From NCBI GenBank assembly GCA_039028635.1, contig JBCCHV010000029.1:1-64000 (forward strand): DNA of 64,000 nucleotides, given 5' to 3'. Below, piece after piece: positions 5,194-19,254 of the stretch. Below the pieces are notes generated by a model. That model had not been told where the DNA came from. It did not search any database and saw only the letters and a program-made list of their open reading frames with translations. The translations under genes were made by a program, and so were the position numbers. Numbering within the stretch: the stretch's first letter is position 1; every line of letters starts with the position of its first letter. This stretch comes from Acidobacteriota bacterium (GTDB lineage Bacteria > Acidobacteriota > Thermoanaerobaculia > Multivoradales > JBCCEF01).

Positions 5194-6249
5194 ATGGCAG
5201 ATCGAAAGTCGCGGTTCCGGCGTTGGCTACGCACCCTCCTCATCATCGTCGCCGTCTTGGCGATCGTCTACCCGCTGAGCTTCTTCCTTCGCAGGTCGTG
5301 GATCGTCCATCAGCTCGCCTCCAGCAGCCGGTTGGCCAACACGCCCCGCGGGCCCGTCGAGTACCTGGAAGGCGGGCGCGGCCCCGCCACTTTGCTGATC
5401 CTCCACGGCACCCCCGGTGGCTACGATGAAGGACTGTTGCTGGCGCAGTGGATCCGCGCCGAGAGGTCTTTCCGCTTCATCGCCCCCTCCCGACCCGGAT
5501 ACCTCCGCACGCCGGTCGAAGTCGGCTCGAGCCCTGCCGAAGCGGCGGCGGCGATGATCGCTCTGCTCGACACCCTCGGCGCCACCCGCAGCTCGGTCCT
5601 CGCCTGGTCCGGCGCTGGACCGACGGCCCTCGAGCTCGCCGGCCGATACCCGCAACGCATCAGCGCCCTGGTCCTGCTTTCGACTCGGGTTCGCGGTGAC
5701 GACAAGTATCGCTTCGCCGACCCGTCGGATCGCGGCACGCCGATCGCTGCGGAATCGCTGAGACCAGACACCGGGATCTTCGGCCCCGATGCCAAGGGGT
5801 ACCTCGGCGCTGTGATGTTTCGGCTGCTGCCGAATCGCTTCTTCGAACGCTACTTCCCCGCCGAGACCCGCAGCATGGGGCTCGCCGTCGAGCGACTACG
5901 CCAGCTGAGGACCGTGACCAGCCCGCCGAGCCGCCGCTACCCCGGAAAGGCCAACGACCAGTGGCAGTTCGCATCGCTCGATCCCGAGCCCAGGATGGAC
6001 GTGCGCGTGCCAACGCTGATCGTCCACAGCCCTGGCGACGAAGCGGTCGATATCTCTCACGCCTACTGGGCCCGGGATCAGATTCCCGGCGCCGAGCTGC
6101 TGGAGGTCGAGTCCGAATCCCACTTCACCACCCTCAACCCCGCCTCGACCCGGATCGTCATGGAGTTCCTGCAGGCTCACGCCGAGGGTGACCCGGTCCT
6201 GCCGAACCGGCCGCAGCCCGCTCGCCCGGACCTCGGAGGCCCTCAGTAG
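5194..6249 (+). CDS. Membrane-anchored alpha/beta hydrolase
   Basis: A 351-residue alpha/beta-hydrolase-fold protein with one N-terminal membrane helix (about residues 11-31), so the catalytic domain probably faces the periplasm. The oxyanion loop is HGTPGG (71-76). The nucleophile elbow reads AWSGAG with S139, so the usual first glycine of GxSxG is alanine. D282 (PGDEAV) and H310 (ESHFTT) complete a plausible triad. Substrate unknown. ATG 5194 is preferred because AGAGGTGG (5182-5189) precedes it; a GTG at 5158 is the alternative. The last 7 bases overlap the end of the convergent adaptor gene. Confidence 0.8.
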   Translation: MADRKSRFRRWLRTLLIIVAVLAIVYPLSFFLRRSWIVHQLASSSRLANTPRGPVEYLEGGRGPATLLILHGTPGGYDEGLLLAQWIRAERSFRFIAPSRPGYLRTPVEVGSSPAEAAAAMIALLDTLGATRSSVLAWSGAGPTALELAGRYPQRISALVLLSTRVRGDDKYRFADPSDRGTPIAAESLRPDTGIFGPDAKGYLGAVMFRLLPNRFFERYFPAETRSMGLAVERLRQLRTVTSPPSRRYPGKANDQWQFASLDPEPRMDVRVPTLIVHSPGDEAVDISHAYWARDQIPGAELLEVESESHFTTLNPASTRIVMEFLQAHAEGDPVLPNRPQPARPDLGGPQ

Positions 6250-7466
6250 CGGACCGCGACGCCGTCGGTGAGCTCGCTCGGAGCCTCGAGAACGACCGTC
6301 TCGGCGGGCTCCAAGCCCTCGAGCACGTCGACCCGGCCGCTGCGCTCGCTGCCCAGGGTGACCGGCCGGCGGCGCGCCACGCCGTCCGCGACGACGAACA
6401 CGACGCTCTCGCCGTCGACGCGGCGCACTGCTCGGCGATCGAGCCAACGACGAGTCGGCTCGGCCGCCAACGCCGGCTCCTCGGCGGCACTCTCGAGGAA
6501 GGCCACCTTGACCCCCATCTCCGGCAGGATGCGGGGATCGAGCTCGTCGAAGGCGATCCGCACCCGCACCGTGGCGCGCTGCCGATCCGCCGTAGGCACG
6601 GTGGTAATCACCGAGGCCGGGATCGACCACTCCGGATAGGCGTTGAGAATCGCACGCACCGGCTGCGCCGGCCGCACCCGGTTGATGAAGGCCTCATTGA
6701 CGTCGACCTCGATCTCGAGGGACGACATGTCGACCAGCGTGCAGATGCCGGTGCGGGTGAAGCCACCGCCGGCGGACACCGGCGAGATCATCTCGCCCGG
6801 CTGGGCGTCCTTGGTCACCACGATGCCGTCGAAGGGCGCCCGCACCACCGTGTCGTCGAGGCTTTGGCGATCCACCGCCACGCGGCGCTCGGCGACGGCG
6901 ATCTGCTCGCGGCCGAGGGCGAGGCGCGCCTCGAGAGCATCGACCGCGGCGATATCGGCGTCGAGGTCCGACTGGCTGACGATCTCGCGCTCCGCCAGCG
7001 AGCGCGACCGCGCCAGGGTGCGCCGGGCGTCGGCGAGCAGCACGTCGGTCTCGGCGACGGCGCTGCGCGCCGATTCGACCTCCGCTTCGGCGAGGCGCAG
7101 GCGGCGCTCGGGGCTGGCCGGATCGAGGCGCGCCAACACCTGGCCTTGCTTCACCGCCAACCCTTCGTCGACCAGCACCTCGACGATCTTGCCGGTGATC
7201 TTCGACGACACCGTCGCCCGTCGCCGGGCCACCACGTAGCCGGAGGCATCGAGCACTGCCGCCGACGGGCGGCCCGCGCCTTCCACCGCGAGGGCCGTGG
7301 TGGTCACCTCGACGGCTCGAGGCCGCAGCCACCACCAGGCCACGGCGAGGGCGAGCACCAGCAGGAGCAGGGCGAGGCCCAGCCGCAGACCACGGCCGCC
7401 ACCGTCGCCGCGGCGATCCTGGTCATCGATGCGCAGGTCGCTCAGCTTGTCGGCTTGATCGTTCAA
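6243..7466 (-). CDS. Periplasmic adaptor (HlyD/MacA/RND-type membrane fusion protein)
   Basis: A 407-residue membrane-fusion protein: one N-terminal membrane helix (about 29-48), split lipoyl/barrel-sandwich regions, a long alpha-hairpin rich in Ala, Glu and Arg (about 105-195), and C-terminal beta-barrel domains. Such adaptors join an inner-membrane ABC transporter to an outer-membrane channel. It is the last gene of the TOMM cluster, so it most plausibly serves the split MacB-like transporter at the other end of the cluster or the ABC-2 pair beside it. No TolC-like channel is present in the window. The start is TTG with GAGGAG upstream. Its end overlaps the convergent hydrolase by 7 bases. 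Confidence 0.85.
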   Translation of the reverse strand: MNDQADKLSDLRIDDQDRRGDGGGRGLRLGLALLLLVLALAVAWWWLRPRAVEVTTTALAVEGAGRPSAAVLDASGYVVARRRATVSSKITGKIVEVLVDEGLAVKQGQVLARLDPASPERRLRLAEAEVESARSAVAETDVLLADARRTLARSRSLAEREIVSQSDLDADIAAVDALEARLALGREQIAVAERRVAVDRQSLDDTVVRAPFDGIVVTKDAQPGEMISPVSAGGGFTRTGICTLVDMSSLEIEVDVNEAFINRVRPAQPVRAILNAYPEWSIPASVITTVPTADRQRATVRVRIAFDELDPRILPEMGVKVAFLESAAEEPALAAEPTRRWLDRRAVRRVDGESVVFVVADGVARRRPVTLGSERSGRVDVLEGLEPAETVVLEAPSELTDGVAVRY

Positions 7467-7511
7467 GGTCTCTCCTCACCCTTCCCGCGGTCTGAACCGG
7501 AGGCGACGACC

Positions 7512-8123
7512 TCAGGAGCCGTCGAGCTCGCGAACGAACCGAATGTCGTCGATCTCGAAGGCGAAGGAGCCCACCGAGTTGCTCTGGAAACCGAAGCCCC
7601 AGAGATCTTCCGCCCCCCAGGGCACGCGCTGACCCCAAAACGCCGACTGTCGCAGGTCGGCGAACGGAATCGTCACCTCACTCCATTCGCTGCGCGCCAC
7701 GAAACGGTGGCGGAAATCGTTGTGATCCTCGACCGCCTGGCGGTAGACCGCCACCTCGTAGAGGTTGCCATCGCCCCGCACCCTGAACCTCAAGGCGCGG
7801 TAAGCGCCGAGATCCCGCGGCTCGCGGTCCTTCGGTCCCAGCGCGGTGACGCCGCCGGCGAAGGGGAACGAGAAGCCCGCCTTGACCTCACCCTGGATCG
7901 CAAGGGCCTTGCCGCCGTCGGTGGCGACCACCGAGACCTCGACCTCGGAAACTCCCTCGACCACCTGATCGGTCAGCGGGAGCCAGCGGCGCCCGAGCAG
8001 GGACTCGAGATCGCCGTCTTCGAAATCGTCGACCCACAGCTCACCAGCGGTCTTCTCCTCGGCGACCGCCGGGACGGCGCCGAGGCACGACAGGATCAAG
8101 AGCAGGGAGAGAAAGCGTGCCAT
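7512..8123 (-). CDS. Secreted CIA30-like / galactose-binding-fold protein
   Basis: A 203-residue protein with a clear signal peptide (MARFLSLLLILSCLGAVPAVA). The mature part begins with WVDDFEDGD and runs as a single beta-sandwich, with RALRFRVRGDGN and a late EIDDIRF strand. This matches the CIA30 (NADH:ubiquinone oxidoreductase intermediate-associated protein 30) family, which has a carbohydrate-binding-like jelly-roll fold. In bacteria such proteins are usually of unknown function. It lies 17 bases after the ABC-2 permease and 45 before the adaptor, so it is probably co-transcribed with the TOMM genes. It could bind the product or a cell-envelope ligand (immunity or export); that is inference. 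Family call is good, role unknown. Confidence 0.75.
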   Translation of the reverse strand: MARFLSLLLILSCLGAVPAVAEEKTAGELWVDDFEDGDLESLLGRRWLPLTDQVVEGVSEVEVSVVATDGGKALAIQGEVKAGFSFPFAGGVTALGPKDREPRDLGAYRALRFRVRGDGNLYEVAVYRQAVEDHNDFRHRFVARSEWSEVTIPFADLRQSAFWGQRVPWGAEDLWGFGFQSNSVGSFAFEIDDIRFVRELDGS

Positions 8124-8140: not shown

Positions 8141-8875
8141 TCAGGATCGCCGACGCAGCAGATAGGCCGCACCGACTCCGCAGACCACCGTCCAGAGGAG
8201 CAGAATGGTGAGGTTCCAGAGCACCGATGGCGCTTCCCCCCAGCCGAGTGCCTCGGGCCGAATCAGCTGCACCAGGAAGGTCAGCGGAAAGGCCAACGAG
8301 ACGGTGTTCACCCACGGCAGCTCGGACTGGTAGAAAACGCCGCTGGTGAACAGCATCGGCAGAAAGATCAGGTTGATGGTGCTGGAGATCGACTGCGGGG
8401 TGCGCACCAGGCAGGCCAGCAGTCCGCCGAGGGCGGCGAAGGTCACGGCGCCGAGGAGAGCGTAGAGGAAGAGCACCAGCAAATTGCCGCGGACGCGAAA
8501 GTCGAATACCAGGTAGGCCACCAGCAGCAACATGGCGGCCACCGCCAGGATGCGCACGATGCGGCTCAAGGCGACGCCGGTGAGGTAGAGGCTCACCGGA
8601 ATCGGCGACACTCGCAGGCTGCGCAGGGTACCCCCCAGGCGCATCGTGCCGAGGGTGCTGCCGGCCGCCTGCATGGCGCTCGAGGAGAGAAACAGGGTGA
8701 GCAGGCCGGTGACCAGAAACCCCATGTACTCGGGATCGCCGCCGCGAATGAAGCCGAGCAGGAGCAGGAGAATACTCGGCAGGAGGAAGTTGTAGACCAG
8801 AACCTCCGGCACCCGGAAGCTCCACAGAAGCTCGAGGCCGGTGATGCGCAGCAGATTAGGCAGAGCGCGCGACAT
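8141..8875 (-). CDS. ABC-2 type transporter permease of the TOMM cluster
   Basis: A 244-residue integral membrane protein with six predicted helices and the ABC-2 layout, including a late hydrophobic pair around NLIFLPMLFTSGVFYQSELPW, the conserved region of this permease type. With the ATPase encoded just upstream it should form an exporter or immunity transporter for the TOMM product. ATG 8875 is chosen because AAGGAG lies 6 bases upstream; it falls inside the end of the ATPase gene, giving a 20-base overlap and probable translational coupling. A longer form starting at 8908 would add a Ser-rich stretch and has no better ribosome-binding site. Confidence 0.85.
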   Translation of the reverse strand: MSRALPNLLRITGLELLWSFRVPEVLVYNFLLPSILLLLLGFIRGGDPEYMGFLVTGLLTLFLSSSAMQAAGSTLGTMRLGGTLRSLRVSPIPVSLYLTGVALSRIVRILAVAAMLLLVAYLVFDFRVRGNLLVLFLYALLGAVTFAALGGLLACLVRTPQSISSTINLIFLPMLFTSGVFYQSELPWVNTVSLAFPLTFLVQLIRPEALGWGEAPSVLWNLTILLLWTVVCGVGAAYLLRRRS

Positions 8876-9815
8876 GACTGCTCCTTCCGGTGAGCTTGAA
8901 GAAGACATCGCGCAGCGAAACGTCGGCCATCTGGATCTGCACCAGGTCGCCGCGAATCGGCAGGCTCCGCAGCAGCTCCTCGGGCTGGTCGTGGTAGAGG
9001 ACCGTCTCGCTGCCGAAGACCATCACGTGGCGACGATCGATGCCGCCTCTGGCGAACAGCACTCGCGGCTCGACGCCGCGCAGGACGAGCTTGCGGCGCG
9101 GGCCGATGGCCTCGCGGCAGAGCTGCTCCGGCGAGCCACAGGCCACCACCCGGCCATCGTGCAGGATGCAGACCCGATCCGCCTGCTGCTCCGCTTCGAC
9201 CATGTCGTGGGTGGAAAAGAACAGCGTGCTGTCGCCGGCCGCCCGGCGGAGGATCTCCCACAGACGGCTCTGGGCCTTGGGGTCGAGGCCGGAGCTCGGT
9301 TCGTCGAGGAAGATCAGCTCCGGCTCTCCGAGCAAGGCGAGCAGCAGCGAAAGCCGCTGGCGCTGCCCCTTCGACAGGTAGCGCACGTAGTTCTCGGTGT
9401 CGAGCTGGAAGGCCTCGATCAGGGTCTGTGGGTCGAGGCCCCCGCGGTGGAAGCCCTGGTGCATCCAGATCACCTCCTTCACCTTGGCGAAGAAGGGGAA
9501 GGCGAAGCTCTCGAGCTGGACACCGCGACGCGCCTTGAGGGCGCCATCGGCGGGGTCCCGGCCGAGCACCCAGGCGCGACCAGAGTTGGGGGTCTTGAGG
9601 CCGGTGAGGATGTCGAGCAAAGTGGTCTTGCCGGTGCCATTGGGTCCCAACAGGGCGAAGGCCTCGCCCGGCTCGACGCGGAAGGAGACCTGGCTCAGGA
9701 CCGCCTTCTTGCCGTAGCCCTTGGTCAACCCCTCGGCGGCGATGGCAGCGCTGGTCGGGTCCTGCGGGACGATCGCGGCGGGCTCCTCGACGCGTTCCTC
9801 GAGGTCGGCGATCAC
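8856..9815 (-). CDS. ABC transporter ATP-binding protein of the TOMM cluster
   Basis: A 319-residue ATPase of the ABC-2 (drug/antibiotic export) class. Walker A GPNGTGKTT (57-65), signature LSKGQ (147-151), Walker B with D171-E172 and switch histidine H203 (STHDM) are all present, so it should hydrolyse ATP. About 25 residues precede the first strand. The GTG start shares the four bases GTGA with the stop codon of the B-protein gene, so it is translationally coupled to TOMM biosynthesis. It likely energises export of the modified peptide or self-protection. The C-terminal ~100 residues form the regulatory tail usual for this class. Confidence 0.88.
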   Translation of the reverse strand: MIADLEERVEEPAAIVPQDPTSAAIAAEGLTKGYGKKAVLSQVSFRVEPGEAFALLGPNGTGKTTLLDILTGLKTPNSGRAWVLGRDPADGALKARRGVQLESFAFPFFAKVKEVIWMHQGFHRGGLDPQTLIEAFQLDTENYVRYLSKGQRQRLSLLLALLGEPELIFLDEPSSGLDPKAQSRLWEILRRAAGDSTLFFSTHDMVEAEQQADRVCILHDGRVVACGSPEQLCREAIGPRRKLVLRGVEPRVLFARGGIDRRHVMVFGSETVLYHDQPEELLRSLPIRGDLVQIQMADVSLRDVFFKLTGRSSHVARSA

Positions 9816-10630
9816 GGCGTCGGTCGTCCCAGGATCATCGGCAACAAGGCCGCCTCGGTAAGGCCGTCGAGGCCGAGCAGGGCATTGAGCTGGTCATCGA
9901 GAAACCCTCCCATCAGGCAGCCGCCCCAGCCCATCTCGGTGGCCACCAGGCCGAGATTCTGAGCCACTGCGCCGGCCTCCATCAGGATCATCCGGTAGCC
10001 GCGGTCTTGATACTTGAAGGTCGAGCGCGAGAAGAACCCGCTGATCACGATGAGCGCCGAGGCGGTGTCGGTGGTCACCCCTTCGAGCAGCACGTACTCC
10101 TCCACTTGCGAGCGGAAATCGCCGCTGCGCAGCAAGTGGAGACGGTGATCCTCGGGGCCGTAGTGATAGATGCCGGCCTCGAGGTCCGCTCCAGAGAGCA
10201 CGATGGTGTAGATCTCGAGCGGAAAGAGGGCCCCACCGGAGGCCACCGCCCGAAAGTAGCCCGGCTTGTCGGTGCGCCCGTAAGCGAAGTGCAGCAACCG
10301 ACCGAGATCGTCCCGCGAGATCGCCTCCGAACGATAAGTGCGCACCGATCGCCGCGCTTCGATGGCCTGCTCGAGGCCGCTCTCCGCCGCCACCGGCGCC
10401 AGCTCGCAGGGCCGGCTCAGGGAATAGACCTTGTAGGGCTGAGAGATGGTCTGCACCATCTCCGGGTTGCGCGTGATGGCCGCGATGCGCTCGCCATACG
10501 AGCGCGTGTTGGCGGCGTGCAGCTTGGTGTTCTCGTGAAACAGCTCGCTGAGCGACGACTCGGTGACCAACGAGGAGACCTGCCGGTGATCGACCAGGTC
10601 GGTGAGGGCGGTCCATTCATCCTTGCGCAT
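9812..10630 (-). CDS. TOMM B protein: SagB-type FMN-dependent azoline dehydrogenase
   Basis: A 272-residue flavin enzyme of the nitroreductase fold, SagB-type. In this family it oxidises azolines made by the C/D complex to aromatic azoles. Visible marks are RRSVRTY (93-99) at the start of the flavin domain, the central GGALFPLEIY (132-141), the KY pair (206-207) and EAGAVAQNLGL (218-228). The first ~80 residues are an N-terminal extension. The gene begins 13 bases after the YcaO stop and ends in a GTGA overlap with the ATPase. A stand-alone nitroreductase role is possible by fold, but the position between YcaO and exporter makes the TOMM role far more likely. Confidence 0.9.
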   Translation of the reverse strand: MRKDEWTALTDLVDHRQVSSLVTESSLSELFHENTKLHAANTRSYGERIAAITRNPEMVQTISQPYKVYSLSRPCELAPVAAESGLEQAIEARRSVRTYRSEAISRDDLGRLLHFAYGRTDKPGYFRAVASGGALFPLEIYTIVLSGADLEAGIYHYGPEDHRLHLLRSGDFRSQVEEYVLLEGVTTDTASALIVISGFFSRSTFKYQDRGYRMILMEAGAVAQNLGLVATEMGWGGCLMGGFLDDQLNALLGLDGLTEAALLPMILGRPTP

Positions 10631-10643
10631 GGTGAGCTCTGCC

Positions 10644-12056
10644 TCAGGGAAAAGGATGGGGATAGGGGTTGATACCGGCCGTCGGATCCCAGCCGAAGCG
10701 CTGCCAGTCGAGGTCCCGAGGGATCGATTCGAGGCGCTGCTGGCCCAAGAAGGGCATGTTGTGGTCGCCGTGCAGGGGCACCAGTCCGGGCACGATCACC
10801 CGCACCACGTGGAAGCCGACCTCGGCGATATCGGGAGTCGTGATGTCCGCCACCACCACCTCGTAGCCGGCCTTGGCGAGCAGGCCGACGGTGCGCTCGA
10901 GATCCCCCAACGGGCGGCCGGTGGCGAGCTCCGGCAGGTCCGAAAGGACCACCCGGCGGTCGACCTCGCGGCAGAAACGGAAGGCCTCTTCCTTGAGCTC
11001 CGGACGCTTGATGTAGAGCAGCGAGTGCTCCTCGAAGTTGCGCAGGTCGGAGAAGTCCTCCGCCGGCTCCCAGTCGGCCAGGCGGTCGAGCTGAAAACGG
11101 AAGTAGGGCAACGCCTGGCTCGACTCGACCAGGGTCTTGTACACCGCGTCCCGGGCCGACAGGCGAGAAGCGCTGCCGACGCACAGCACGGTGCCGTACT
11201 CGGCCGGCCGGGTCAGGATGGTGAGCACCGAGGGAACACCGAGATCGAGGCTGACGTCGTAAACGGCGAGGTCGACGTCCGGGTGATCCGGGTAGTACCT
11301 CTCCCGCACCAGCCGGTCGATGGCCTCATCGTCGATCTCGATGCGCGGCCCCATGTGACGCTGCAGCCAGTGGATGGTGAAGGCATCGCGCTCGATCACC
11401 TCGTAGAGGCCGGAGAGAATGGCCTCCTCGAGGGTGCCACCGGCGGACAGACCGCTCGAGGCGTTGCGCCCGGTGACCGCCTCGCCGTCGCGATACTCGA
11501 ATCCCAGATAGACCAGCGTCGCCGGCACCAGCTTGGGCCGGTTCTCGGTCAGGGACCAGCCCCAGACCCACGACACCGGGGCGTCCTCGTCGAAATAGTC
11601 GGCGCGATAGCGCGGCGGCGGATTCTCCACCTGCGGGCGTGAGAACAGCCGCAGAAGCTCCGGCGCCACGGCATCGGCGGCGACCTCGCGATGGGGCGCG
11701 AAGATCATCTCGTCGCGGTCGTAGAACAGCATGCAGTAGCGCTCCGCCGCCTCGCCGATGGAGGCCGCCAGAGCGACCTCGAAGGTCGCTCCACCACCGC
11801 CGGACTTGATGCCGGAGTTGCCGCGCGAGGAGAAGCGCGAGGTGTCGCAGGCCGAGACGCCGAGGGAGAAACAGCGCGTATCCCCCTGGCGAAAGGCCCC
11901 GGGACCGACATGACGAATCAAGCCGGTACGCGAGGAGATCAAGCGCTTGCCCTTGCGCACCGTCTCGAAGGGGTCGCTCCAATCGACATCTCGCAGCTCG
12001 AAGGTCTGCCGCAGGTGGCGCGGCTCCCGCGGCTCGACGGCCGACCTACTTGCCAT
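10644..12056 (-). CDS. TOMM D protein: YcaO-domain azoline-forming cyclodehydratase
   Basis: A 470-residue YcaO protein. YcaO enzymes use ATP to activate the backbone amide so that a Cys (or Ser/Thr) side chain closes to a thiazoline (oxazoline). Family signatures are SRGNSGIKSGGGGATFEVA (77-95) followed by GEAAERYC (101-108), the EEAILSGLYEVIERDAF block (210-226) and ARDAVYKTLVESSQ (301-314). The C-terminus is PYPHPFP (464-470), the Pro-rich PxPxP tail characteristic of azoline-forming YcaOs and important for their active site. This separates it from thioamidating or ribosomal YcaOs. ATG 12056 is chosen because AGAGG precedes it and it overlaps the C-gene end by 11 bases; a longer form from 12110 would run deep into that gene. 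Confidence 0.95.
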   Translation of the reverse strand: MASRSAVEPREPRHLRQTFELRDVDWSDPFETVRKGKRLISSRTGLIRHVGPGAFRQGDTRCFSLGVSACDTSRFSSRGNSGIKSGGGGATFEVALAASIGEAAERYCMLFYDRDEMIFAPHREVAADAVAPELLRLFSRPQVENPPPRYRADYFDEDAPVSWVWGWSLTENRPKLVPATLVYLGFEYRDGEAVTGRNASSGLSAGGTLEEAILSGLYEVIERDAFTIHWLQRHMGPRIEIDDEAIDRLVRERYYPDHPDVDLAVYDVSLDLGVPSVLTILTRPAEYGTVLCVGSASRLSARDAVYKTLVESSQALPYFRFQLDRLADWEPAEDFSDLRNFEEHSLLYIKRPELKEEAFRFCREVDRRVVLSDLPELATGRPLGDLERTVGLLAKAGYEVVVADITTPDIAEVGFHVVRVIVPGLVPLHGDHNMPFLGQQRLESIPRDLDWQRFGWDPTAGINPYPHPFP

Positions 12057-13071
12057 AGGTGACCTCTTTCCAGGGATGGGCCTCGGGGGTGAGCGGGTGG
12101 CAGAAAGCACAACGCGGCAAGCGCAGCACCTCGTGAGGCTCGGCTCGCCAGCGACCGAGCTCGAAGGTCAGGTAGCGGCCGGCCAGCTCGACGGCGGCGA
12201 AGTCGGTCAAGAACTTCACGACCTCGGTGGCGGCGATGCCGGCAACGGCCTCGAAGAAGGGCTGCAGGCCGCCGCAGCGGGCCCCACCCTGACCGATCTC
12301 ACGCAACCGCTCGGCCAAGGCGCGGTGCTCGTCGAAGGAGCCGCGATGGCTCGCCTCGCGGGCCTCCAAGCACTGCAAGCAGGCGGTGCTGCCGGGCAGG
12401 AAGAAGGGACCGATGGCCGCCTCCCGCAAGCTCAGGATGCGCACCAACAACCAAGGGAAGCGCCGCTCCAGGGCGAAGCCGTTGATTGCCTCGACGAGCT
12501 CCGGATCGAAGCCTTCCTGGGTCACCAGCACCAGCTCTTGCGAGTCCTTCGGCAAGCCCTCTCCGGCCAACAGCGCCGGACGCCCGCCGCCGGCAAGCTC
12601 GAGGCGACGCACGCCGCCGATGCCGGCCCCTTCGAGCTGGCGCCCGAGGGCGCCGGCCAGGGCGCCCTCCCCGACCAGCGTCACGGTGGATTCGATCAGG
12701 CGCCGTTGGTGCCCCGCCCCGCCTTGATCGGAGAAGCGCGAGAAGAACGAGATCTGGTGCGAGAAGCGCTCCTCCACCTCGGCCGGTAGGCGGGCCCCAT
12801 CGCCTTCCTCGAGCAGACCGCGCTGGGCCAGACCGACGATCAGTTGGTCGACCTCGCCGGCGGTGATGCCCTGCTCGGCCACCGCTTGCTGGATCTCGGG
12901 ACGCGAGCGCTCGCCGGTGAGATGAGGCAGCACCGCCCCGAAGACGGCCAGGGCACGCTCGTTCTTGAGATCGAGGCGCCAGAGCTCGTGTTCACCGCCG
13001 CGCAGTCCCCAGGCGGTGCTCGAGATGGGAAAAATGGTGAGATAGGTCTTCAGCCTGGGTTTGTCGAGCAT
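12046..13071 (-). CDS. TOMM C protein: leader-binding E1-like cyclodehydratase partner
   Basis: A 341-residue protein of the TOMM ocin-ThiF-like class. Residues ~1-90 form a winged-helix RiPP recognition element (RRE), the part that binds the precursor leader and presents the core to YcaO. The rest is an E1/ThiF-like fold. Two CxxC pairs, C231/C234 (CLQC) and C321/C324 (CAFC), are the expected structural zinc tetrad. C and D are separate genes here rather than fused. The gene follows the precursor after 154 non-coding bases and overlaps the YcaO start (ACCTATGG junction). GGGGCGG precedes the ATG. The ThiF-like adenylation motifs are weak, as expected since ATP is used by YcaO. Confidence 0.92.
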   Translation of the reverse strand: MLDKPRLKTYLTIFPISSTAWGLRGGEHELWRLDLKNERALAVFGAVLPHLTGERSRPEIQQAVAEQGITAGEVDQLIVGLAQRGLLEEGDGARLPAEVEERFSHQISFFSRFSDQGGAGHQRRLIESTVTLVGEGALAGALGRQLEGAGIGGVRRLELAGGGRPALLAGEGLPKDSQELVLVTQEGFDPELVEAINGFALERRFPWLLVRILSLREAAIGPFFLPGSTACLQCLEAREASHRGSFDEHRALAERLREIGQGGARCGGLQPFFEAVAGIAATEVVKFLTDFAAVELAGRYLTFELGRWRAEPHEVLRLPRCAFCHPLTPEAHPWKEVTYGK

Positions 13072-13225: not shown

Positions 13226-13390
13226 TTAACGCTCCGCCGCTGGCTCGACGTCGCAGCAACATCCACAGCAGTTGCAGCAGGCGCCGCCGGTGGCGGTCAG
13301 ATCGAAAGAAACGTCGGCCGGGAAGTCCTCCAGAGGGGTGACCTCGAAGAGAGAGTCCTGATCCACAGCACCATTGAAGAGATCGACCAT
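13226..13390 (-). CDS. TOMM precursor peptide with seven-cysteine core
   Basis: A 54-residue peptide, below usual gene-calling limits. The acidic leader (about 1-36, starting MVDLFNGAVDQDSLF) has two FxxxV stretches, F5-V9 and F23-V27, resembling the leader motif read by TOMM recognition elements. It ends in Gly35-Gly36. The core ACCNCCGCCCDVEPAAER has Cys at 38, 39, 41, 42, 44, 45 and 46 in a 2-1-2-1-3 pattern and no Ser or Thr, so only thiazoles can form. If all cyclise, two bithiazoles and one terthiazole result, separated by Asn and Gly. The start is fixed by a near-perfect ribosome-binding site (AAAGGAGG, 5 bases before ATG). It lies between transporter and cyclodehydratase genes. A metallothionein-like peptide is the alternative, disfavoured by the leader and context. 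Confidence 0.9.
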   Translation of the reverse strand: MVDLFNGAVDQDSLFEVTPLEDFPADVSFDLTATGGACCNCCGCCCDVEPAAER

Positions 13391-13599
13391 TGCAGCCTCC
13401 TTTGTTCTCAAAGGGTTGAAAATGCGAAACCTACTCCGGGGACTGGCCGAATCCCCTGATGGTGACCCCGGGAGGAACGGAGTAACTACTCCGAGACTGG
13501 CAAATTCAGATCGGCGAGGCGCCGACGACGAGGCGAGACGATGCAGGGTGCGGCCCGCGAATAGCTGCTGCTGCCGGGCGCCCCACGGGCACCGGCGGC
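13391..13599 (-). promoter_or_regulatory. Leader region of the precursor gene with 16-bp palindrome
   Basis: These 209 bases between the second permease and the precursor hold no gene. They contain a perfect palindrome CGGAGTA-n2-TACTCCG (13478-13493) and two direct copies of CTACTCCG-n-GACTGGC (13431-13447 and 13486-13501), the second overlapping the palindrome. This is a likely operator region. No convincing -35/-10 pair was found, so an alternative sigma factor or read-through from the transporter genes is possible. The site just before the ATG is AAAGGAGG. Confidence 0.5.
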
Positions 13600-14793
13600 T
13601 CAGAGCTCGCGCAGGGCGACGGACACCGGCAGGCGGGCCGCCCGCACCGCCGGGAAGAAGCCACCGACGAAGCCCATCATCAGAGCGTAGACGATGCCGG
13701 CGACCATCAGCGGCGGGGTCACCGCGAAGGCGAAGGCAACCTGGGAGAAGGTCTGGAAGTTCAGGGTCGCGGCCTGGAAACCGTTGAACAGGAGATAGGC
13801 CAGGGCCGCCCCCAAAACCCCGCCGCAGCCGGCGAGGAAGAGAGCCTCGGCCAGCACCGACACCACCACCGGTAGCGAGCCGAAGCCAAGGGCGCGCAGG
13901 GTGGCGATTTCGCGCGTGCGCGAGGACACCGCCGCGTAGAGTGTGTTGAGGGCGCCGAAGACGGCGCCGAAGCCCATCAACAGCGCCACCAGGGATCCCA
14001 GGCCGCGGATGATCGCGGTCATCACCGTCGACTGCTCCTGGTAGTAGTCGGTCTCCCGGATTACCTTGACGTTGAGCCGCGGGTCCGCCTCGAGCCCCTG
14101 CTGGAAGCTCTCGAAGGCGGCTGGCGATTCGAGCTTGGCGTGCACCGACTGGAAGGAGGTGCCGCGCTGGTAGGCGGGCTGCAGGACGCGGGCGTCGCAC
14201 CAGACCTCGGAGTCCTCGGCGGTGCCGCCGGCTTCGAAGATGCCGACCACCTGCCAGTCGATGTCGCTCCAGCGCACCGTCGACCCGAGGGTCAGGCCGG
14301 CGAACTCCTCAGAGGCGGCGCGGCCGACGATCAGCTCGTTGCGCCCCTCCTCGAAGAAGCGCCCATCGACCAGCTCGAACTCCTTGCGCACCGCGAAGGC
14401 CGCCGGCTCGACGCCACGCAGGGGCACGTTGGCGCCGGTGCCGGTCGAGCGCTTGGGCTGATCGACGACCACGAAGAGCTCGCCGGAGGCGATCGGTCGA
14501 CCGTCGCCATCACGGCGCACGGCCGGCTGATCGACGATGATCTGGACCGACTCGAGGGACAGCCCGCTGACCATCTCGGAGGTCGCCCCGGAGCGCATCA
14601 CCAGGACGTTGGAATCATCGCCGGTGCGCGCCAGGGTGGCCTGGAAGCCAGAGGCGATGGAGAGCACCCCGACCAACACCATGACGACGCCGCCGACGCC
14701 GACGATGGTGACCAGCGAAGATCCCACCCGCTGGGGCAAGCTGCGCAGACTGAAGGTGGTCACGGCGACCACCTGGGAGATCCAAGAAAACAC
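13600..14793 (-). CDS. ABC permease, MacB/FtsX type (second)
   Basis: A 397-residue permease with one N-terminal helix (about 22-50), a large periplasmic domain of MacB-PCD type and three C-terminal helices ending in the FtsX domain (ALGFGSLPVVVSVLAEALFL). MacB-type transporters work mechanically, driving periplasmic substrates through an adaptor and outer-membrane channel rather than moving them across the inner membrane. The GTG start lies one base after the stop of the preceding permease, so the two are coupled and probably form a heterodimer with the shared ATPase. It is immediately upstream of the TOMM precursor. Confidence 0.85.
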   Translation of the reverse strand: MFSWISQVVAVTTFSLRSLPQRVGSSLVTIVGVGGVVMVLVGVLSIASGFQATLARTGDDSNVLVMRSGATSEMVSGLSLESVQIIVDQPAVRRDGDGRPIASGELFVVVDQPKRSTGTGANVPLRGVEPAAFAVRKEFELVDGRFFEEGRNELIVGRAASEEFAGLTLGSTVRWSDIDWQVVGIFEAGGTAEDSEVWCDARVLQPAYQRGTSFQSVHAKLESPAAFESFQQGLEADPRLNVKVIRETDYYQEQSTVMTAIIRGLGSLVALLMGFGAVFGALNTLYAAVSSRTREIATLRALGFGSLPVVVSVLAEALFLAGCGGVLGAALAYLLFNGFQAATLNFQTFSQVAFAFAVTPPLMVAGIVYALMMGFVGGFFPAVRAARLPVSVALREL

Positions 14794-14794
14794 C

Positions 14795-15943
14795 TCAGGC
14801 CCGCCTCAGTGCATCCACGACCTTGAGCCGCAGGGCCTGCAGCGCCGGCGCCGCGCCGGTGATCAGACCGAGGCCGAGCACCATCGCGATGCCCAGCACC
14901 AGGGCATTGTTGGGCATGTAGAGGGTGGGCAAGAAAGCTCCGCCGAGGTCGAAGTTTCGGCTCAGGTAATAGATCAATCCGAGGCCGGCGCCACCACCGA
15001 GCAGGGCGAGGAGGCTCGACTCGAGAAGGACCAAGGCCATCACCTTGCCATCGCCGAAGCCGAGGGTCTTGAGCACTCCGATCTCGTGGATACGCTCGCG
15101 CACCGACTGCGCCATGGCGCTGCCGGCCACCAGCAGCAAGGTGAAGAAGACCACCGCCGCGACCCCGGTGACGATGGCGCCGATGTTGCCGGTCTGGTTG
15201 GCGAAGGCCTGGACGAAGGCCTTCTCGGTGGAGGTCTTGGTCTCCGCCGACGAGTTCGCGAACAGCTTGTCGAGGTTCTCGGCGATGGCGGCGGCGCGGT
15301 CCGGCTCGGCGACCTCGATGATGTACATGCCGACGGCGCCGAGCATTCCCATGCGCTCTTCGAGGTAGTCGTAGTGGAACAGGAAGAGGCTGTCGTCGGC
15401 GGTGCTGTCGGCACCTTCGTAGATGCCCTCGATGACGAACTCCCAGTAGGGGTCGTCCGGGGGCCGATAGATGGTGCCCTCGAAGGTCACTCGATCCCCG
15501 ACCTGCCAGTCGAAGCGCTTGGCCGTCGCGCGGCCGACGATGGCGCCGCCGCGGTTGTCGAACCAGGCCTGGCGACGCTCCTCCGGCAAGATGAACTCGG
15601 GATAGATGGCGAGATAGGCCTCCGGATCGACGGCGAACTGCGACATCTGGTTCTTGGGATCCTGGTAGATCCCGCCGAACCAGCTCGCCTGACTGACCTT
15701 CGCCACGCCGTCCTGGCCCTCGATGCGGTAGCGGTAGGCGAGGGGCAAGGGCTGGATGATCGACACCTTGTTGAGCATCACCAGCCGCTCCAGGCCATTG
15801 ATCTCGATTCCGGCACCGAAGGCCACCTTGATCGCCGTCAGCAAGCCGTAGAGGAAGAAAGCGACGAAGATCGACAGCACCGTCAGGCCGGTGCGCACTT
15901 TCTTGCGCGTCAGGTTGCGCCAGACGAGGTGGAGATACTTCAC
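14795..15943 (-). CDS. ABC permease, MacB/FtsX type (first)
   Basis: A 382-residue permease with the same layout as its downstream neighbour: N-terminal helix (about 19-40), a periplasmic domain, then three helices in an FtsX domain ([29 protein letters not shown]). The GTG start overlaps the ATPase stop as GTGA. Split ATPase plus two different permeases is a common bacterial arrangement, compared with the fused MacB of Escherichia coli. The adaptor expected for such a system is about 7 kb downstream at the end of the TOMM cluster, which ties the ends of the cluster together functionally (inference). Confidence 0.87.
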
Positions 15944-16629
15944 GCCACCGCCTCCTGAGCCAGCTTGCCCTGCTCGAGATGAACCGTCCGCTGGGCGCGC
16001 TCCGCCGCTCGCGGGTCGTGGGTCACCATCACGATGGTCTTGCCGAACTCGCCATTGAGGCGCTCGAGGAGATCGAGAATCTCGTCGCCGGCAACGCGAT
16101 CGAGGTCACCGGTGGGCTCGTCCGCCAGGATCAGGGTGGGGTCGGTGACGATGGCGCGGGCGATCGACACCCGCTGCTCCTGGCCGCCCGAAAGCTGGCG
16201 CGGATAGTGTTTGGCGCGGTCCGCCAACCCGACCACCTCGAGGGCGGTGCGGGCGCGCTGGCGACGCTCGGCCTTGCCCAAGCGGGTGAGCAACAGCGGC
16301 AGCTCGACATTGCGCTCCGCGGTGAGCACCGGGATCAGGTTGTAGAGCTGAAAGATGAACCCGACGTGGCGCCCCCGCCAGCGCGTCAGGCGCGCGTTCG
16401 AGGCGCGGTCGATGCGCTCCTCCCCCACCTGGATGGTGCCGGAGGTCGGGCGGTCGAGACCGCCGATCAAATTGAGCAACGTCGTCTTGCCGGAGCCGGA
16501 AGGCCCCATCAAAGCGACGAAGTCGCCGGCGTCGATGTCGGCCGTCAGGTGGTCGAGGACCTGAACCCGCTCGCTTCCCCGGCGATAGACCTTGGAGACT
16601 TCCCGCAACTGCACCAGTGGATTGGACAT
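15940..16629 (-). CDS. ABC transporter ATPase, LolD/MacB type
   Basis: A 229-residue ATPase. Walker [10 protein letters not shown] (42-50), signature LSGGQE (145-150) and Walker [13 protein letters not shown] with D169-E170 are all canonical; the last motif is diagnostic of the LolD/MacB/FtsE family. It supplies energy to the two FtsX-type permeases that follow with overlapping or near-overlapping starts. The ATG is 9 bases after the stop of the secreted metalloprotease gene, so transcription probably runs through from there. Confidence 0.93.
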
Positions 16630-16638
16630 TGCGGCGGA

Positions 16639-19197
16639 TTATAGCGGAGCGTCGAAGGCTCCCCCACAGAAGTCGTGCGCCCCACCGATGGGGCTCCCGG
16701 GAGGCGGCACCGGTGCTGCCGGCACCGCCATCGACGGCAGCTCGCGACGCTCCAGGAAGCGGCCGATCTCGCGCCCCAGGAAAGCATTCTGGGGGCTCAC
16801 CGGCTGGCGCCGGCCGGGCGGTTTCCGCAGCTCCCGGCGCAGCTCCTCGAGTTGGTCCTCGACTCGCCGCCGCACCTCCACCGCCACTGCCTCGTCGTGG
16901 GCCAGGCGGATCAGGCCCTGCACCACCAACCACTGCACCCGGTGCTCGATGGCGAGCTGCCGCGGCGAGCTCGCCGAGGCCTGCGGAAAGGCGACCGCCG
17001 AGAGCTCGTCCAGCACTTCTTCGAGGCCGGGCAAGGCGGGGTTGCGGCGATGCTGCTCGACCAGACGCAGGGCACGGGTGGGCTCGAGCACCTGGTCGAG
17101 GGTCAGGCCGGCGGCGGTGGCGGCGGCAGCGAGGGGGTCGAAGAGGCGGCCGAGATCGCCCTGGAACTGCTCTCGGTTGGCATCGAACCCGGCCGGCCGC
17201 GGCGGCAGCACGGCGAGCACGTGCTCACCGATGTCGAGCTCCGCCGCCCGCAGGGTCGAGAGCACGACCTCGAGGGCCCTGCGCTGATCTTCCCCGGGCA
17301 CCGCCCGCACCGCCGTTTGACCATCACCCCGCAGGGCATAGCGGTAGTCGACGCCGGCGAGCACCTTGGCGGCGGCGGCGAGCTGGAAGCGGTGATGCAG
17401 GTAGACGGTGGCGAGGACCTCTTCCAGCAGGGCGAGCGGCCGCCCCGGCGCCAACCGATCGGCACCGAAGTCGGCGAGGGCGATGCGGCGCACCGCCAGC
17501 GCCCGTTCGAGGGTCGCCACCGGATCCTCGCCGTCATCCCAAAGGCTGGCCCGGGGATGGAAGGATCCGCCGCGGGCATCCTCGTCGCTCAAGAACAGCA
17601 GGCCCCGCTCCTCGGCCTCGGTGACGCAGCGAGCGAGCATCTCCGCCTCCCCCTCCCCCGCCGCCGGCTCGCCATAGGCACAGGCCACGGCGTGCTTGTC
17701 CCAGCTGCCGATGCCGACGCCATAGACCTGCGAGAAGTCGAGCTCGCCGGCCGCCGTCACCCCGACCCGCGGTGGCGGATAGTCCATCACCGAGGCGCGA
17801 TCGTCATAGCTGCTGGCGGCGAAGTTGTGGGCCAGTCCGAGGGCGTGTCCGACCTCGTGGGCGGCGAGCTGGCGGATTCGAGCCAACGCCATCTCAACCG
17901 GATCGTCGGGCGCTCCGCTGCCGGTCTTCGCCACCCCGGCGAGGCCTTCGAAGAGCAGCCGGTCTTGGCGCACCCGCAGGGAACCGAGCCAGACGTGCCC
18001 CTTGATCATCTCGCCGGTGCGCGGATCGATCAGGCCGCCGCCATAGGACCAACCGCGGGTCGAGCGGTGCACCCACTGAATGACGTTGTAGCGCACGTCG
18101 AGGGGATGCATGTCCGGCGGCATGACCTCGACTCGAAAGGCGTCCTCGAAGCCCGCCGCGGCAAAGGCTTCACGCCACCAGGAGGCGCCCTCGACAAGGG
18201 CGCTGCGCACCGGCTCCGGCACCCCGGAGTCGACATAGAAGACGATCGGCTCGGTCACCGGCGAGGCGGCAGCCCCGGGATCGACCTTCTCGAGGCGGTG
18301 ACGCACCGCCCAACGGCGAATCAAGGGCTCGTCGAGGGGCGCCGCATAGTCCTGGAAGGAGATTTCGTAGGAACCCAGCCGGGGGTCGAAGGGGCGCGGG
18401 CGATAGTCGTCATCGGGCAGCCGCACCAAGCTCTGGTGCTGGACCAGGGTCACCGCCTCCGGCGCCGGCACGGTGGCCGAAACCAGATCGCCGGGCGCGC
18501 TCGAAGTGAAGGTGAGCCGCGCCTCGAGCACCAGATTGTCGGGAAAGGCGAGGCAGTTGTCGGCATCGACGGCGCTGCGCTCGAGGTCGAGGACGAAAGC
18601 GCCTTCCTGGCGTTCGCTCAACCGCGCCACCACCTGGTGGGCGTCGCGCAACGCGAAGGAAGTGATGTCGACGAGCGCCGTGCCGTCGGCGTCGAGGGCG
18701 GCGACGGGGCCGGCCCAAAGGACCGAAGGAGCGAACGACTCGCGCACCGCGCGGCGCTCCTCGGGATCTTCCGACAGGGCGCGAAAGCGTAGGTTCTCTT
18801 CCTCGATCAGGAGACGCCCGCCGAGGCGCCGGAGCTGGACCACCCGGCCGTCGCCGAGCTGGCCGCGGTCGAGACCGATGGGATTCGACCCCAGCCCCGT
18901 GAGCAGGGCCTCGAAGTACAGGTAACGACCCGCCACCCCGCGGTCATCGGCCGGCGGTACCCGCAGCCAGACGGCTCCCGCCGCCTCATCGACGAACAGG
19001 TCCAGCAGCCCCGAGCGCTCTTCGAGTCCGGCCGCTTCGATCTTCTCCTGCACGGTCGGCAGACCCTGATCTTTCTCGCCCTCGGCCCGAGCCGGAAGGA
19101 CCGCGACCAGCCAGGCGAGGCAGAGCAACAGCAACGGTAGGGCCCGCCATCCCTTGGCGAGGGAGGTCTCAGGGAAACTGGTCAAGGGCTTTCTCAT
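16639..19197 (-). CDS. Secreted zinc metalloprotease (HExxHxxGxxH, DUF5117/DUF4953-like)
   Basis: An 852-residue exported protease with a signal peptide ending near LPARA. The zinc site HEVGHALGLAH (H447, H451, H457; E448 catalytic) is a metzincin-type motif, followed by Asn-Phe and a likely Met-turn at VMDYP. The N-terminal half matches the DUF5118/DUF5117 layout and the C-terminal half the DUF4953 layout of large zinc-dependent metalloproteases common in Bacteroidota and Acidobacteriota. The role is unknown; general periplasmic or extracellular proteolysis is the default. Since it ends 9 bases before the transporter genes of the TOMM cluster, it is also a candidate for maturing or degrading the exported peptide (inference only). 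ATG 19197 has GGAAG upstream; a TTG at 19209 is possible. Confidence 0.85.
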   Translation of the reverse strand: MRKPLTSFPETSLAKGWRALPLLLLCLAWLVAVLPARAEGEKDQGLPTVQEKIEAAGLEERSGLLDLFVDEAAGAVWLRVPPADDRGVAGRYLYFEALLTGLGSNPIGLDRGQLGDGRVVQLRRLGGRLLIEEENLRFRALSEDPEERRAVRESFAPSVLWAGPVAALDADGTALVDITSFALRDAHQVVARLSERQEGAFVLDLERSAVDADNCLAFPDNLVLEARLTFTSSAPGDLVSATVPAPEAVTLVQHQSLVRLPDDDYRPRPFDPRLGSYEISFQDYAAPLDEPLIRRWAVRHRLEKVDPGAAASPVTEPIVFYVDSGVPEPVRSALVEGASWWREAFAAAGFEDAFRVEVMPPDMHPLDVRYNVIQWVHRSTRGWSYGGGLIDPRTGEMIKGHVWLGSLRVRQDRLLFEGLAGVAKTGSGAPDDPVEMALARIRQLAAHEVGHALGLAHNFAASSYDDRASVMDYPPPRVGVTAAGELDFSQVYGVGIGSWDKHAVACAYGEPAAGEGEAEMLARCVTEAEERGLLFLSDEDARGGSFHPRASLWDDGEDPVATLERALAVRRIALADFGADRLAPGRPLALLEEVLATVYLHHRFQLAAAAKVLAGVDYRYALRGDGQTAVRAVPGEDQRRALEVVLSTLRAAELDIGEHVLAVLPPRPAGFDANREQFQGDLGRLFDPLAAAATAAGLTLDQVLEPTRALRLVEQHRRNPALPGLEEVLDELSAVAFPQASASSPRQLAIEHRVQWLVVQGLIRLAHDEAVAVEVRRRVEDQLEELRRELRKPPGRRQPVSPQNAFLGREIGRFLERRELPSMAVPAAPVPPPGSPIGGAHDFCGGAFDAPL

Positions 19198-19254
19198 GGC
19201 TTCTTCCAAAGGTTCGTCGAAGTTCGAGGGGATCTCGGTGCGAGGGTCGCCACC

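Follow-up and report, generated by a model that had tools for sequence, protein, structure and literature searches.

Does a short, cysteine-dense ORF in acidobacterial DNA encode the precursor of a linear azol(in)e-containing peptide (LAP/TOMM), or does its cysteine pattern have another explanation? The ORF lies in a stretch of 64,000 nucleotides (the window), which corresponds to bases 1-64000 of a 72214-base contig (C29) from a genome that is 95% complete. Our analysis indicates that the ORF is very probably such a precursor, with a product that is predicted to be secreted. The original prediction for the locus was, taken as a whole, partly supported.

The small ORF and its neighboring genes

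The original prediction placed a 54-residue ORF at 13226..13390 and left its strand unstated. Translation confirmed this ORF and assigned it to the minus strand, where 13390-13226 reads MVDLFNGAVDQDSLFEVTPLEDFPADVSFDLTATGGACCNCCGCCCDVEPAAER; the plus-strand frame over the same bases is unrelated. The core, ACCNCCGCCCDVEPAAER, was taken to start at residue 37, a leader/core border that we infer. As originally described, it carries seven cysteines in the order 2-1-2-1-3 with no Ser or Thr, and Gly35-Gly36 stands directly ahead of it. Residues 1-36, the putative leader, include 6 Asp and 2 Glu but lack Lys, Arg, and His altogether, in keeping with the description of an acidic leader. The two FxxxV stretches attributed to this region are present (FNGAV and FPADV), but relatives share a different element, [L/F][F/I]x[V/I/L].

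The codon pattern of the core is rare. TGY TGY NNN TGY TGY NNN TGY TGY TGY occurs once in the whole 6.28-Mb genome (control pattern, 0), and when up to one mismatch was allowed, the CCxCCxCCC codon pattern had a single match in the window, whereas none of 100 dinucleotide-shuffled versions of the window contained it. Among 512 small ORFs of the window (30-130 aa), cysteines are packed most tightly in this one, with 7 in 12 residues, against 5 in the runner-up. GC by codon position is 0.65/0.48/0.72, the ranking expected of a coding frame, although the third-position value is below the 0.85-0.92 of neighboring genes.

The E1-like gene starts 154 bases downstream of the ORF on the same strand, and we inferred a single transcript because the genes agree in strand and spacing (Table 1). 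Pattern searches for sigma-70 promoters and terminators found none, an Rfam scan of the window gave no matches, and the RNA fold of the 154-base spacer gave no signal (z, 0.72). A perfect palindrome, CGGAGTAGTTACTCCG, was noted at 13478-13493, in the gap before the ORF; a half site (CGGAGTA) lies some 45 bases closer to the gene. This palindrome has one perfect copy genome-wide; with up to two mismatches there are 11 matches per strand, against 20 for the control, and no regulon was inferred because near-copies are not above control.

Table 1. Features of the locus, in window coordinates
Feature	Coordinates	Strand	Basis
Predicted precursor peptide gene, 54 aa	13226..13390	-	Translation; pattern uniqueness in genome; leave-one-out profile rank
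Ribosome-binding site region, AAAGGAGG ahead of ATG	13391..13410	-	Sequence; orthologs also have one
E1-like C protein, RRE-like N-terminus, predicted leader binder	12046..13071	-	TIGR03882, 61.1 bits (cutoff 36.9)
YcaO cyclodehydratase (D protein), SagD-type, ends PYPHPFP	10644..12110	-	TIGR03604, 302.6 bits (cutoff 219.25); PF02624
SagB-type FMN dehydrogenase, predicted azoline oxidase	9812..10630	-	TIGR03605, 140.3 bits (cutoff 78.4)
ABC transporter ATPase, predicted exporter	8856..9815	-	PF00005; DrrA/NodI-like, below NCBIfam cutoffs
ABC-2 permease, predicted exporter	8141..8908	-	PF01061
CIA30-like protein	7512..8123	-	PF08547, E 2.5e-15 on longer frame
HlyD/RND-type membrane-fusion protein	6243..7466	-	TIGR01730, 165.6 bits (cutoff 94.9)
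MacB/LolCDE-like ABC set, two permeases and one ATPase, directly upstream	13600..16629	-	
DUF5117/DUF4953 metzincin-like protein, upstream	16639-19209		

The C, D, and B proteins beside the ORF are intact. The YcaO protein, the sole one in the genome, was matched by profile to LynD, TruD, and MusD, and the solved relatives of the SagB-type dehydrogenase include McbC. A structural model of the E1-like protein (pLDDT, 85.3) had TruD and LynD as its best matches and predicts an RRE-like fold at the N-terminus. Against plasmid records the E1-like protein gave 8 matches, none of them more than 32.8% identical or covering more than 44% of its length. Among 27 relatives, it alone keeps all four Cys at residues 231, 234, 321, and 324 (present in 6, 1, 1, and 1 of the 27 rows, respectively), an arrangement reminiscent of the zinc site of E1 enzymes.

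The neighborhood fits the LAP/TOMM class as outlined in PMC4603692, where the cyclodehydratase consists of an E1-like C protein and a YcaO D protein; TIGR03882 and TIGR03604 were both matched above cutoff, and the predicted RRE domain on the C protein would be a further feature of membership. The precursor criterion in the same source is a short peptide encoded within 10 kb of the D protein, with a core of 45-65% Gly, Cys, Ser, and Thr. The ORF lies 1.1 kb from the YcaO gene, and Gly and Cys make up 10 of the 20 residues from Gly35 on. Neither NCBIfam nor Pfam showed an NHLP or Nif11 leader domain in the peptide at E 0.1.

The CIA30-like protein starts with a hydrophobic stretch that we interpreted, on inspection, as a signal peptide, and it is 32% identical to the product of L033:14114-14743 in the operon of the related genome G044; it was found in two of four loci only, the window and G044, and this apparently exported protein is a candidate immunity or product-binding part. 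The MacB/LolCDE-like set and the metzincin-like protein are only possible members of the cluster; the permeases of the former had no homolog in the stretches examined of three ortholog loci (E 1e-6).

Orthologous operons and their small ORFs

Some YcaO match was present in 21 of 98 genomes searched (the source genome included) and a close match in two besides it, G029 (52% identical) and G044 (49%), both from the same order as the window genome. A third close YcaO (51%) lies on JAPOPC010000040.1 (L037), a MAG contig filed as Acidimicrobiaceae. An alignment-based scan of genome contigs returned 176 YcaO relatives, and we retained the 80 best. In an 81-row tree, built by a quick method and midpoint rooted for drawing, the YcaOs of the window, G029, G044, and L037 form one clade (SH-aLRT, 99). 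None of the 14 pattern matches from a single-sequence YcaO scan of genome contigs was confirmed.

Wider searches yielded no further close ortholog. These covered 72 genomes of the order (four matches in three genomes, one of them, at 228.6 bits, in a second, distant cluster of G029), 396 genomes of the phylum (matches in four, the three besides the source genome at 215-230 bits), and, with E1 as the query, 148 genomes of the class (matches in three). Among 198 relatives of the Acidimicrobiaceae MAG, the one match was in the MAG itself. L037 is filed under Actinomycetota, and its YcaO groups with those of Acidobacteriota, pointing to horizontal transfer or misbinning.

All four operons share the gene order small ORF, E1, YcaO, SagB. 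The original prediction had tied precursor identity to short ORFs beside orthologous YcaO genes and to conservation of the ORF and its ribosome-binding site; in 3/3 orthologous operons, a small ORF with its own Shine-Dalgarno sequence stands directly before the E1 gene, with a related leader and a different core. The encoded peptides are MEENELFEIELVENTSLEAGRIAPSVDIGGGGGGGQSNSNSSNNAADMP in G029, MDNETLIEIERLYDSADELDAEAVCPCGFCMCACVICIIPNDDQ in G044, and MPRDNTSGKQLFALERHPDPKSDLHPSFDVLGGCSSSNSNSGCCNSNASGVGDNP in L037. For G029, the start was placed at an ATG inside a longer mechanical frame because that ATG has the Shine-Dalgarno sequence. One ortholog core is Cys-free and built of Ser and Asn, one has alternating Cys, and one is mixed Cys/Ser. 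The expectation of a conserved leader with variable Cys-rich cores thus held for the related leader and the variable cores and failed for the Cys-free core.

A search with an alignment of the four precursors gave 10 rows at E ≤10 among 12 candidates. Judged by E-value, three of these rows are weak (7.9e-3, 0.18, and 0.57), and for four, the window's own included, the longest contig is as long as that of an E1 row. The core types are CSSNSN(S/T)GCCNSNAS, QSNSN(C)SSNNA(A/S)DMP, the G044 type, and the window singleton; cores are alike within a type and dissimilar across types. In the alignment, read by eye, the leaders share mainly the hydrophobic [L/F][F/I]x[V/I/L] element followed by acidic residues (12/12 rows), in the form LFE[V/I] in six.

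Kinship of the window leader was assessed with profiles. A profile of 11 relatives, built without the window peptide, placed that peptide at the top of 512 ORFs with 17.0 bits and E 1.8e-4 (runner-up, E 0.28); its score was reached by 0 of 2000 whole-peptide shuffles and by 15 of 2000 leader-only shuffles (1916 scored). This test is not fully independent, because 8 of the 11 rows were recovered solely through a search whose seed alignment included the window peptide. A profile restricted to the three precursors that position alone had identified did not single out the window peptide (rank 2, E 2.6), and a single-sequence homology search with it returned only itself. Given the failure of the three-row profile and the partial independence of the larger one, position and the Shine-Dalgarno sequence outweigh leader sequence in our assessment.

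Several further observations concern these loci. A pair of M16 peptidases stands beside the operon in G029 and G044; in the latter, a GMC oxidoreductase and the two M16 peptidases (L033:3667-5346 and 5343-8068, plus strand) lie directly before the precursor gene. The G029 operon also encodes a TPR protein of 1003 residues whose C-terminal domain is PqqD-like (L032:5000-8011, minus strand) and which is possibly a second leader-binding part. Tandem small ORFs were seen in Actinomycetota and Myxococcota MAGs (L050:8348-8685, L057:3988-4456, and L060:7029-7568); their leaders resemble FLxIExLEDR, their cores alternate Cys, Ser, and Thr (for example, CACTTSCGCTSCSCVVWW), and they match the precursor profile weakly (E 0.012 to 0.32).

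Proposed pathway and alternative readings

Because of the enzyme families present, we propose a pathway of leader binding, cyclodehydration, and oxidation. The E1-like protein would engage the acidic leader through its RRE-like N-terminal domain, up to seven core cysteines would be cyclodehydrated by YcaO, and SagB would oxidize the resulting thiazolines to thiazoles. The product would then carry Ala-(Thz)2, Asn-(Thz)2, and Gly-(Thz)3 units followed by an unmodified tail, DVEPAAER; the originally proposed two bithiazoles and a terthiazole are arithmetically correct for the case of full cyclization. Leader removal is expected near Gly35-Gly36, and no protease for this step was seen in the immediate operon. 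PMC10885120 describes the M16 family as removing leaders of class III lanthipeptides and names TldD/E (M103) as the peptidase family for LAPs. The genome has 12 M16 matches, of which the single one on C29 (30383-30736) lies about 17 kb off across opposite-strand genes; seven matches to PF02517 (CaaX-like) and two to C39 peptidases were found genome-wide, none on C29. Export would proceed through the adjacent ABC-2 transporter, possibly with MacAB-like parts, and the most likely role of the product would be that of a secreted antagonist of competing microbes.

A bolder proposal, which we regard as doubtful, is that one enzyme clade and one leader type swap cores, from a Ser/Thr-free heptathiazole in the window to a Cys-free Ser/Asn core in one relative, which could yield oxazoles, and an alternating-Cys core in another, so defining a new LAP family in which the window product would be rigid, stack, and bind metal or nucleic acid.

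It is very unlikely that the ORF instead encodes the precursor of a membrane-acting cytolysin of the streptolysin S type. The C, D, B, and ABC gene types are the same as in cytolysin clusters, as is a Gly before a Cys-rich core (PMC4603692), and in NCBIfam the peptide matches TIGR03602 alone, over residues 33-46. This match scores 19.6 bits against a cutoff of 35, however. All identified cytolysin clusters are described in that text as having a CaaX-like protease and a Gly followed by at least 10 heterocyclizable residues, whereas none of the PF02517 matches is on C29, the seven Cys of the window core are spread over 9 positions and broken up by Asn and Gly, and the cores of relatives are dissimilar to it.

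We give equally little credence to a Cys-rich peptide that binds metal and is left unmodified or is modified only in part. Seven clustered cysteines and an acidic leader could bind metal, and the original prediction itself had named strong homology to metallothioneins as evidence against a precursor. No Pfam family, metallothioneins included, matched the peptide at E 0.1 or better, and the place before E1, YcaO, and SagB in 3/3 orthologs, together with the Cys-free core in one of them, argues against this function. Least credible is a chance frame with the true precursor elsewhere in the genome: the ORF lacks a single-sequence homolog, its third-position GC is below that of its neighbors, and some TOMM precursors are distally encoded according to PMC4603692, but the Shine-Dalgarno sequence and position as in 3/3 orthologs, the pattern's uniqueness in the genome and absence from 100 window shuffles, and the leave-one-out rank of 1 all speak for a real gene.

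Relationship to known systems

In the literature searched, we found no description of the window YcaO clade or of a CC-N-CC-G-CCC core, and no described clade whose cores range from Cys-only to Cys-free; within that literature, we could assign the LAP family proposed here to no described group. Four unlike cores beside one enzyme clade offer a direct test of YcaO/E1/SagB tolerance to core replacement, and the window gene would be a short, gene-encoded route to contiguous thiazoles. Within Acidobacteriota, the Tha/The pathways are also thiazole-forming RiPP pathways but make the thiazole by a GMC oxidase rather than YcaO (PMC13083261); GMC matches were found in 0 of 20 window proteins scanned with Pfam. 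That paper, from 2026, presents its work as the first experimental characterization of Acidobacteriota RiPP modifications; a YcaO-dependent family from the phylum would therefore break new ground.

Hakacins, as summarized in PMC4603692, resemble the window system in their discrete C and D proteins, B protein, and ABC transporters and, by description, in near-identical leaders joined to three different core groups; unlike it, they come from Bacillus cereus/thuringiensis, and their clusters also encode a protease and a group-specific protein. Gallolytisins and faecalisins, in the same source, have a discrete cyclodehydratase, ABC transporters, and Cys-block cores, and the faecalisin Cys block follows a Gly linker, as in the window peptide. 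They belong to other phyla, their cores are Cys4-Xaa-Cys4 or Cys repeats, in contrast to the CC-N-CC-G-CCC core of the window, and their summaries there name no dehydrogenase, whereas the window has SagB.

A second TOMM-type locus in G029 (L035:10527-10946, plus strand), between two YcaO genes of contig C46, encodes a 139-residue precursor ending in VSCCCCTPCCCCAATDVQPFAA, close to the gallolytisin Cys4-Xaa-Cys4 core. Three near-identical Nocardiopsis alba ORFs (L112:6348-7475, plus strand) end in CCSCCSCCPCCCCS after a Gly linker. As in the window peptide, Cys pairs split by single residues follow that linker (GGGCCSCCSCCPCCCCS), but the associated YcaO is distant in the tree, Ser occurs among the spacers, and the leader is dissimilar. 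With hakacins, gallolytisins, faecalisins, and the Nocardiopsis alba ORFs as precedents, both Cys blocks and core swapping are thus known in kind.
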